A stretch of DNA of 47,841 nt, from positions 1 through 47,841 of IMG/VR virus record IMGVR_UViG_3300025892_000035; one strand, given 5' to 3'. Below are positions 43,538-46,430 of the stretch, piece by piece (the stretch's first letter is position 1; each line of letters starts with the position of its first letter). This DNA comes from a virus. The translations under genes and the position numbers were made by a program. The notes below the pieces were generated by a model. The model was given only the letters and a program-made list of their open reading frames with translations, searched no databases and was not told the origin of the DNA.

Positions 43538-43566
43538 TTGACAAAACTCTCATAACCTGATATAAT
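43538..43566 (+). promoter_or_regulatory. sigma70-like early promoter
   Basis: TTGACA 43538-43543, TATAAT 43561-43566, 17-bp spacer, GC before -35. It drives the exonuclease, the tmRNA and probably 33 to 59. Confidence 0.85.
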
Positions 43567-43593: not shown

Positions 43594-44367
43594 ATGAGTG
43601 AAGCACTAAACGCTTTGATGAAAAGCAAATTTGAAATGAAAACATTTACACATACTCCTTTGCCAGAGAGTTCGGTAAAAGAAGTGTATACAGAAACAAT
43701 CAACAAGAAACGATTCTATGTAACGCCAGACGGCCATAAGTATCCATCTATCACAACTGTTCTTAGTGGCAGAGCGAAAGAAGGCATCAATGCATGGCGT
43801 GAGAGAGTCGGTGAAGCTGTTGCTAATCAAATAATGAGAACTGCTGCCAAACGAGGTACGGCTGTTCACGAACTTTGTGAAGATTATCTAAACAACAAAG
43901 AACTAGGCAATCAAGAGGTACTACCGCTTGCTATGTTTACTTTATTGAAGCCAGAACTTGACAATATAAATAATATTGTTGCACAAGAAGTTGGTTTGTA
44001 TAGTGATAGATGGGGTATTGCAGGTCGTGTTGACTGTATCGCTGAGTATGATGGCAAACTAACTGTTATTGATTTTAAGACATCCACAAAAGAAAAGAAA
44101 GAAGAATGGATTGAAAACTATTTCATTCAATGTACTGCCTATTGTGAGATGTTTGAAGAAAGATATGGTCGTGCAATCGACCAGATTGCTGTACTAATCG
44201 TCTGTGAAGATGGTGGTGTACAGACTTTTGTGAAAGACAAAAAAGATTATATAGATTTATTGCAACCAGCAATTGATGAATTTTGGGCAGAATACGATAT
44301 GGAATCTGCTCAACCCGTTTTGGGCGAGTCGGCAGAAATGTCAGAACGACTAGTGCCAAGGCGATGA
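43594..44367 (+). CDS. PD-(D/E)xK exonuclease (RecB-like)
   Basis: 257 residues. The nuclease core shows GRVDCIAEYDGKLTVIDFKTS (the Asp and D-x-K pair), an earlier GTAVHELCE helix with His and Glu, and Q in QCTAYCEMF, which is motif III of RecB-type nucleases. It likely processes DNA ends in recombination or host DNA breakdown. Ribosome site GAGGTG. The stop is a few bases before the tmRNA gene. Confidence 0.85.
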   Translation: MSEALNALMKSKFEMKTFTHTPLPESSVKEVYTETINKKRFYVTPDGHKYPSITTVLSGRAKEGINAWRERVGEAVANQIMRTAAKRGTAVHELCEDYLNNKELGNQEVLPLAMFTLLKPELDNINNIVAQEVGLYSDRWGIAGRVDCIAEYDGKLTVIDFKTSTKEKKEEWIENYFIQCTAYCEMFEERYGRAIDQIAVLIVCEDGGVQTFVKDKKDYIDLLQPAIDEFWAEYDMESAQPVLGESAEMSERLVPRR

Positions 44368-44369
44368 TA

Positions 44370-44625
44370 AGAATTCTCGTTGACGGTAATGGAGTAAAGG
44401 TTATGGACTTGGGTTCGATTCCCAACATCTCCACCAAAGTATTTTGGTCATCCCTAAAATATTTTCGTGGGGATGAAAAGGTGTTCGACATGGCTATTGA
44501 AAGATTACAAGAGAGGATAGTCCTAAGACTTAAAACTAAAATAAAAGCTAACTCTAATCAGTATGCTTTAGCAGCTTAAGTTGCTAAGGGGGTTGCCAGT
44601 ACCTTCTAACCCAAACTGGCACTAA
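44370..44625 (+). ncRNA. ssrA: circularly permuted two-piece tmRNA
   Basis: The acceptor piece comes first: T-stem TTGGG / CCCAA (44409-44413, 44421-44425) around loop TTCGATT, 3' acceptor strand CATCTCC, A, then CCA ending at 44436. A 32-nt spacer folds as a hairpin (AGTATTTT with AAAATATT). The coding piece starts GGGGATG at 44469 and pairs with CATCTCC, giving a G3-U70 wobble, the alanine identity mark. Tag frame 44547-44579 reads ANSNQYALAA then TAA. An H-type pseudoknot follows (GGGTT/AACCC at 44590/44608; GCCAGT/ACTGGC at 44595/44615). A P2-like pairing joins the pieces (CTATTG with TAATGG; CAAGAGA with TCTC-TTG). Outer ends are approximate. Trans-translation with host SmpB is implied; no smpB is here. 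Confidence 0.92.
44547..44579 (+). other. tmRNA proteolysis-tag reading frame
   Basis: Resume codon GCT, then AAC TCT AAT CAG TAT GCT TTA GCA GCT and TAA, giving ANSNQYALAA. With the alanine from the charged tmRNA, the tag would be AANSNQYALAA. The ALAA end is the normal ClpXP/ClpAP signal. Confidence 0.9.
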
Positions 44626-44639
44626 CTCAAGGTGATAAT

Positions 44640-44810
44640 ATGAAAAGATTTTTTAAAGAAGTGTACCTTACGGGTCATGGTAAAGAAGATAAGAACATGT
44701 TCAACACATTTAAAGACACAAAGTTTTACAAAGTAAATGCTGTTGAACAAGAAGAATTAAAAGATTGCCATAATGTGAAATATATAAACTTAGATGAGAT
44801 TAAAATATGA
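44640..44810 (+). CDS. small hypothetical protein (56 aa)
   Basis: 56 residues (MKRFFKEVYLTGHGKED...), basic start and acidic end. It begins about 15 bp after the tmRNA and overlaps the 33 gene by 4 bp. A Ser/His-free, non-catalytic-looking protein; function unknown. Confidence 0.6.
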   Translation: MKRFFKEVYLTGHGKEDKNMFNTFKDTKFYKVNAVEQEELKDCHNVKYINLDEIKI

Positions 44811-45034
44811 AAATGATAATTACACCAAATAAGTTTGCAATATTAATAGAAGAATTAGTTAAGACAAAGAAGATGAGTTACATTGATGCAATTCTTCACT
44901 ATTGTGAAAAGAACGGAATCGACCCGAGCGATTCTAAAAAATTAGTAAACAAAGGACTCAAAGAGAAGTTGACTTATGAGGCACAGAACCTTAATTTATT
45001 AAATACAGAGAAAGTACCACAGTTGCCCATATGA
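44807..45034 (+). CDS. 33: late transcription co-activator (T4 gp33-like)
   Basis: 75 residues. The stretch IEELVKTKKMSYIDAILHYCEKNGI, ending KLTYEAQNLNLL, aligns through its length with T4 gp33 (from memory: IEKMVEEFGMSYLEA ... IQSEAIDENLL), and the gene order 33, 59, 32 is that of T4. T4 gp33 links RNA polymerase to the sliding clamp at late promoters. Shorter than T4's 112 aa, lacking its N-terminal tail. Its C-terminus VPQLPI would stand for the clamp-binding end. Confidence 0.72.
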   Translation: MKMIITPNKFAILIEELVKTKKMSYIDAILHYCEKNGIDPSDSKKLVNKGLKEKLTYEAQNLNLLNTEKVPQLPI

Positions 45035-45594
45035 ATAATAGAGTAGCAATACTTTCTGCTATACCAGCAGAACTCAATGGATTCCCAGAAGAAGATTGGG
45101 AAAGTCAAATACTGTATACAGGTGTTGGTAAAATAAATGCCACAAAGGCACTTATGGAACATGCAATGCATTTAAGAAACTGGAACTATTCAGTTATAAA
45201 TTATGGTACAGCTGCCAAAGTAAGTGATAAGGTTGAAGTTGGTAAACTATATGAAGTTACTAATTTTATACAAAGAGATATGGATGTAACACCACTAGGA
45301 TTTCAGAACTATGAAACGCCATGGGGAAATAGAAACATATCATTTTTAACGACAACACTTGATGGCATTACATGTGGTACAGGTGATAGTTTTTATCTGC
45401 ACGGCGAGTCAAAACAAAATGACTATGATATAGTTGATATGGAATCATATGCGTTGGCATCTGTGTGCAAAGATTATGATATACCATTTCGTTGCTTTAA
45501 ATACATATCAGATGCTGGTGACCCACAAGAGTGGACTGTCAACGCAACAAAAGGCGTAGATTTATTTTTAGAAAAATTACAAGAGATACTATAG
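45031..45594 (+). CDS. nucleosidase / nucleoside phosphorylase-like (MTA/SAH nucleosidase type)
   Basis: 187 residues, shorter than usual (about 230). AILSAIPAEL (E14) is the N-terminal strand of the family; TGVGKINAT is the phosphate/ligand loop; CGTGDSFY, then D-M-E138 in DIVDMESYALA and SD161 in KYISDAGD are the substrate and catalytic residues. It may split MTA, SAH or another purine nucleoside. It sits between 33 and 59, interrupting the T4 order, so it looks like an inserted metabolic gene. Confidence 0.8.
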   Translation: MNNRVAILSAIPAELNGFPEEDWESQILYTGVGKINATKALMEHAMHLRNWNYSVINYGTAAKVSDKVEVGKLYEVTNFIQRDMDVTPLGFQNYETPWGNRNISFLTTTLDGITCGTGDSFYLHGESKQNDYDIVDMESYALASVCKDYDIPFRCFKYISDAGDPQEWTVNATKGVDLFLEKLQEIL

Positions 45595-46356: not shown

Positions 46357-46430
46357 GCGGAAGTAGTGTAAAAGCAACATGACAGGTTTCCAATCTGTAG
46401 ATAGAGGTGCGAATCCTCTCTTCCGCTCCA
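46357..46430 (+). tRNA. tRNA-Gly (anticodon UCC), CCA encoded
   Basis: 74 nt with CCA. Acceptor GCGGAAG / CTTCCGC then TCCA. D-stem GTGT / ACAT. Anticodon arm ACAGG-TTTCCAA-TCTGT gives anticodon TCC, reading GGA/GGG. T-arm AGAGG-TGCGAAT-CCTCT. All helices pair, with G-T only at the D-stem and anticodon-stem ends. The phage genome uses many GGA/GGT glycine codons. Confidence 0.93.

Follow-up and report, generated by a model that had tools for sequence, protein, structure and literature searches.

We identified a complete tmRNA gene of the rare, circularly permuted two-piece kind, independently called by ARAGORN and Rfam, at positions 44371-44626 on the plus strand of a 47,841-base virus record (hereafter the window, whose positions are used throughout). 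In our estimate it is probable (roughly 75%) that this gene encodes a functional phage tmRNA which would rescue ribosomes together with the SmpB protein of the host, and which is probably transcribed early. The intact parts of the molecule, compensatory pairing, a conserved tag, a conserved genomic slot and the failure to find a phage SmpB are direct observations; from these we infer the timing of transcription, processing, charging, activity and benefit to the phage.

Specifically, ARAGORN reported a permuted tmRNA at 44344-44670 (+) with the tag ANSNQYALAA. The Rfam model RF04321 (tmRNA_permuted) matched over its full length at 44374-44579 with 102.7 bits (gathering score 47; E = 5e-19 over the whole window), and RF01850 (beta_tmRNA) matched over its full length at 44344-44629 with 88.0 bits (gathering score 84), relatives reaching 88.6-99.2 bits on the latter. 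RF01849 (alpha_tmRNA) scored 52.1 bits at a cut-off of 50, covering only model positions 69-184 of 355; with this partial match and the T-loop TTCGATT the gene lacks the full-length match and the T-loop expected of the alpha family. The score for RF01851 (cyano_tmRNA), 38.9 bits, was below the gathering score of 70.

The first-pass annotation, made from the sequence alone, had proposed a phage-encoded permuted two-piece tmRNA and had suggested ARAGORN and the alpha model as a check. ARAGORN and the permuted model bore the proposal out, and the alpha model matched only in part. The individual parts were also found as proposed (Table 1): an acceptor half preceding the coding half, a 32-nt spacer folding on itself at -6.3 kcal/mol (a raw folding energy), an acceptor stem with G3-U70 and all seven pairs formed, a readable tag and a downstream pseudoknot. 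Membership in tmRNA_permuted is indicated by the acceptor half lying 5′ of the coding half, G3-U70, the encoded CCA, a selected tag frame with stop codon, and inter-piece pairing with covariation in the inter-piece helix and the acceptor stem. The mature acceptor piece probably starts near 44371, because sequence conservation begins there.

Table 1. Positions of the tmRNA parts and of neighbouring features in the window.
Feature	Position	Strand	Basis and remarks
Perfect sigma-70 type promoter, TTGACA-17 nt-TATAAT, TG before -10	43538..43566	+	sequence
PD-(D/E)XK exonuclease gene	43594..44367	+	PHROG 298, E 2e-79; stop codon abuts tmRNA
Acceptor piece: 5′ helix strands, T-arm, 3′ acceptor strand, encoded CCA (44434-44436)	44371..44436	+	ARAGORN, Rfam, conservation
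Helix strand ATTCTC, partner 44513-44518	44373..44378	+	cofold; 100% paired, one one-sided change only
Helix strand GTAAT, partner 44504-44508	44386..44390	+	cofold and pair counts in alignment
Inter-piece helix strand, partner 44489-44495	44399..44405	+	double changes at three pairs
T-arm, stem TTGGG/CCCAA, loop TTCGATT	44409..44425	+	two compensatory pairs
Acceptor stem 3′ strand CATCTCC, including U70	44426..44432	+	one compensatory pair, in L022
Intervening segment, 32 nt, AT-rich hairpin	44437..44468	+	alignment and folding; removal expected
Coding piece (G1 at 44469), 3′ end approximate	44469..44626	+	ARAGORN, Rfam, alignment
Acceptor stem 5′ strand GGGGATG, G3 at 44471	44469..44475	+	alignment, relatives
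Tag frame ANSNQYALAA, GCT start, stop TAA	44547..44579	+	ARAGORN; synonymous variation
H-type pseudoknot: stem 1, GGGTT 44590-44594 with AACCC 44608-44612; stem 2, GCCAGT 44595-44600 with ACTGGC 44615-44620	44590..44620	+	cofold; stems invariant except one pair
Small ORF, 56 aa, between tmRNA and gp33	44640..44810	+	no convincing family in family searches
gp33-like late-transcription coactivator, downstream neighbour	44807..45034	+	PHROG 254, E 5.5e-24

Conservation of the structure and of the tag

The structure was assessed in an alignment of nine distinct sequences of the same clade, in which 41 proposed pairs were counted. Of all cells, 98.6% were paired, and compensatory changes occurred at six pairs, three of them in the inter-piece helix, two in the T-stem and one in the acceptor stem. 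None of 500 shuffles reached the observed pairing or covariation score. Slid structures remained below 49% pairing, a control that is favourable by construction because the structure was drawn from one of the aligned sequences; the compensatory changes are the stronger evidence. All nine relatives keep the acceptor stem with G3-U70, the T-stem, the inter-piece helix and the pseudoknot. The stems of the pseudoknot are invariant or nearly so and, being hardly variable, are consistent with pairing in the alignment without amounting to a covariation test. The stretch of a candidate upstream pseudoknot (PK1) is likewise invariant in the window clade. Furthermore, the acceptor stem was paired at 7/7 positions in every parsed relative despite many differing stems, where the parser demanded full pairing in one set of relatives and only 6/7 in the other. 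G3-U70 and CCA were also present in relatives selected through the exonuclease, whereas U70 was built into the search for the pattern-selected loci.

Within the clade the tag frame varies at five sites with four alleles, all differences being synonymous third positions. Six synonymous changes out of six have a chance of about 2e-4 under equal rates (23% of random changes being synonymous), a figure that serves as a guide only, given related alleles and a higher frequency of transitions than assumed. This pattern indicates purifying selection on the tag. Known degradation tags end in [L/M]AA-type residues, and so do nearly all tags of the relatives. The tag peptide is constant within the window clade and differs between phage clades, as might be expected if tagging itself were the main role, with the phage tmRNA competing with that of the host and phage-tagged host or aborted proteins being degraded or recycled to the advantage of the phage. 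Such a role has been proposed for the phage Melnitz (PMC9004378). However, the LAA/MAA endings resemble ordinary host degradation tags and we saw no sign of a special fate for tagged proteins, so that we regard tagging as unlikely to be the main role.

Predicted function in ribosome rescue

Under the favoured explanation, ribosome rescue, the tmRNA would be transcribed early from a host-type promoter together with the exonuclease gene. The precursor would be cleaved at two sites, behind the encoded CCA and, by RNase P, ahead of G1, and would thereby lose the 32-nt hairpin spacer, while the acceptor stem and the inter-piece helix would keep the two pieces joined. Host AlaRS would charge the RNA via G3-U70, and host SmpB and EF-Tu would deliver it to ribosomes that have stalled on broken mRNA. 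After reading the tag the ribosome would be released, and the tagged product would be degraded by a host protease. The most likely benefit to the phage would be that ribosome rescue goes on at a time when takeover destroys transcripts. Control of rescue or tagging, or substitution for a degraded host tmRNA, as suggested in the first-pass annotation, may also be among its roles.

A search of 15 phage records returned no SmpB, with the control matching in 10 genomes; the window is a genome fragment and an SmpB gene may lie elsewhere in this genome, though the three complete relatives of the same kind lack one. Together with the intact tag, G3-U70, CCA and inter-piece pairing, this points to an RNA working with host SmpB. 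A missing phage SmpB would also suit a decoy that titrates host SmpB and thereby blocks host trans-translation, and such a decoy has been reported, a tRNA-like molecule that lacks a tag and resembles the one of mycobacteriophage DS6A (PMC4131195). But neither tag nor stop codon nor pseudoknot would be required in a decoy, and here the tag is selected and the pseudoknot stems are nearly invariant, which makes this explanation improbable.

Genomic context and transcription

The window encodes T4-like genes for DNA polymerase, helicase, primase, ribonucleotide reductase, gp33, helicase loader and single-strand binding protein, and the phage is a marine, T4-like phage of Kyanoviridae type. By DNA polymerase it comes closest to Synechococcus myophages, Melnitz and Mosig, with less than 60% identity in every case. 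Downstream of gp33 a nucleosidase-like protein of the PNP_UDP_1 phosphorylase superfamily is encoded at 45031-45594, and ARAGORN identified a tRNA-Gly(TCC) gene at 46357-46430.

The order exonuclease-tmRNA-gp33 is common to HTVC008M, Melnitz and the Pelagibacter phage Mosig, three records that are placed in Kyanoviridae; in Synechococcus phage S-H38 gp33 follows directly after the exonuclease without a tmRNA between them. Among 80 metagenomic loci collected through the exonuclease, the parser found a permuted tmRNA downstream of it in 54, while 12 were too short to judge and 14 were negative, two of which (L040 and L047) were called as tmRNA by ARAGORN. At least 10 exonuclease-bearing relatives with at least 2 kb downstream contained no tmRNA by parser or ARAGORN, and the gene is thus not essential in all relatives. 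Glutamine riboswitches adjoin the tmRNA genes of other phages (L060 4413-4461, L098 5115-5163, L245 2150-2198), as reported for Melnitz, and a SAM-V riboswitch match right at threshold lies between exonuclease and tmRNA in L034 (3691-3756).

The close packing of this slot, with the stop codon of the exonuclease abutting the acceptor piece and gp33 coming after, might suggest that the tmRNA serves as RNA-processing punctuation between the exonuclease and gp33 mRNAs, with rescue being secondary. For this a simple tRNA-like fold would be enough, and tag and inter-piece pairing would be lost, so that we consider punctuation more doubtful still than a decoy. Integration at host ssrA, a gene to which genomic islands often attach (PMC11915505), is hardly credible as the origin of the tmRNA as a mere remnant, given two complete halves, purifying selection, a single slot across divergent phages of virulent type, and no integrase in 10 phage records tested.

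The first-pass annotation had the tmRNA driven by an early promoter. A sigma-70 type site does exist (Table 1), but it lies about 0.8 kb upstream, before the exonuclease gene and not before the tmRNA. It is a probable early promoter of the exonuclease-tmRNA-gp33 segment, and an early role of the tmRNA would fit it. The identical site occurs at equal position in the clade members L004 and L022 and is absent in four others, L005, L019, L020 and L021. No promoter was found directly before the window tmRNA, and TTGACG at 44380 was rejected as a -35 box as it is part of the conserved acceptor piece. Melnitz-like relatives carry a promoter directly before the tmRNA. The motif TATAAATA upstream of the tmRNAs of relatives was considered as a T4 late promoter and rejected, since in most of them TTGACA precedes it by 17-18 nt; it appears better read as part of a sigma-70 promoter, in agreement with the early promoter given for Melnitz (PMC9004378). 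Early transcription by two layouts, from before the exonuclease or from directly before the tmRNA, is therefore plausible.

Relation to known tmRNAs and possible hosts

A two-piece phage tmRNA was published in 2022 for Melnitz, in a study that also gave 53 out of 133 distinct phage tmRNA structures as two-piece, mostly aquatic (PMC9004378); the window gene therefore joins an already known kind. The ssrA genes of Melnitz and Mosig and an unannotated tmRNA of HTVC008M share the permuted two-piece form and the genomic slot with the window, and the coding half of HTVC008M groups with that of the window. Their T-loops, however, are altered, whereas that of the window is canonical (TTCGATT), and for the window, with its 32-nt spacer, Rfam prefers the beta model over the alpha model. 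The glutamine riboswitch was matched in Melnitz but not in the window by Rfam. The tmRNAs of Stenotrophomonas phage DLP_6 and Acinetobacter phage BUCT628 are also permuted, with the same GGGGATG/CATCTCC acceptor stem (76.5% identity to the window over 94 nt and 87.8% over 41 nt, respectively), but have different tags and an unrelated genome context.

The betaproteobacterial two-piece tmRNA (RF01850) resembles the window gene in its full-length match, T-loop and downstream pseudoknot arrangement, but betaproteobacterial hosts carry ANDERFALAA-like tags. The alphaproteobacterial form (RF01849) shares the order of acceptor before coding piece, but its model matches only the tRNA-like domain of the window gene. 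TTCGATT is the T-loop of the sampled beta hosts, while nearly all sampled alpha hosts carry GGC[A/G]GTA, the assignment of hosts to alpha or beta being based on their tmRNA and search group.

In a tree of whole tmRNAs the window clade was placed inside a phage clade next to L032, L035 and HTVC008M. The coding half nested among pelagimyophage tmRNAs, with a beta grouping rejected (AU p 0.0018), which indicates pelagimyophage descent of this half. The acceptor half, based on 86 columns only, grouped with canonical-T-loop sequences (95/94), a placement with HTVC008M not being rejected (p 0.22). Either exchanged halves or a T-loop that reverted would account for this conflict. The halves of two-piece tmRNAs could swap between phages, because the mature RNAs are joined by base pairing only, and we tentatively raise the possibility that the tmRNA of the window clade is a chimera of a canonical acceptor piece of beta/gamma type and a coding piece of pelagimyophage type. 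If so, pairing would have been re-matched by compensatory change after an exchange of halves between phages.

The permuted tmRNA had been taken as a sign of an alphaproteobacterial host and as the best host clue in the window. Neither view is supported: the alpha match is partial (52.1 bits, against 88.0 bits over the full length for beta), the T-loop is TTCGATT, and the tmRNA type did not identify an alphaproteobacterial host. Melnitz, a phage of a Methylophilales host, carries an alpha-type tmRNA like that of pelagimyophages, and tmRNA type is therefore a poor host marker. Two pattern scans of genome contigs for a close host tmRNA, one without a match and one matching two betaproteobacteria, identified no host, and BLAST of the window tmRNA against about 800 Pseudomonadota genomes returned short T-arm matches only, many of them to one-piece tmRNAs. 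In Herbaspirillum sp. CF444 (L106/L107) a standard tmRNA (ANDNSYAQAA) occurs beside a permuted one, which has the odd tag ANQPQYIAYGT and is perhaps of prophage origin.

Small genes nested in related phage tmRNA genes

Related phages can have a long stretch between CCA and the coding piece. An unexpectedly long reading frame (p <0.05) was found in 20 of 48 distinct segments of at least 90 nt, where about 2.4 would be expected, though some segments are homologous and thus not independent. Members of a protein family of 38-47 residues with a WSICAD motif were encoded inside a tmRNA gene at 74 of 96 places, with 41 distinct forms. Often a Shine-Dalgarno sequence follows CCA immediately and the stop codon of the frame falls shortly ahead of G1; carriers are the tmRNA spacers of L077, L075, L083, L094, L199, L277 and L291 and further viral contigs. 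These are probably membrane proteins, and a pN/pS of 0.21-0.31, with none of 500 column shuffles equally low, shows that the family is under purifying selection. Searches of Pfam and PHROG gave no family above threshold for it, and it matched no phage isolate. A second, overlapping short frame (GDSDEE...) lies 5′ of the WSICAD frame in several spacers, and unrelated frames of 45-120 aa occupy most of the length of the tmRNA spacer in L072, L079, L193, L217, L230, L236 and L245, whose permuted tmRNA genes score above Rfam thresholds. All 14 long-spacer loci tested reached Rfam tmRNA thresholds. The 32-nt spacer of the window holds no nested gene. Our literature search found no prior report of protein genes nested in tmRNA spacers, and small genes nested in phage tmRNA genes would be new.

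Conclusions

The window clade provides a clean, syntenic and selected example of a phage tmRNA, and it shows that the type of a tmRNA guides poorly to the host. Phage tmRNAs point to ribosome rescue being kept up or steered by some phages in the course of infection.
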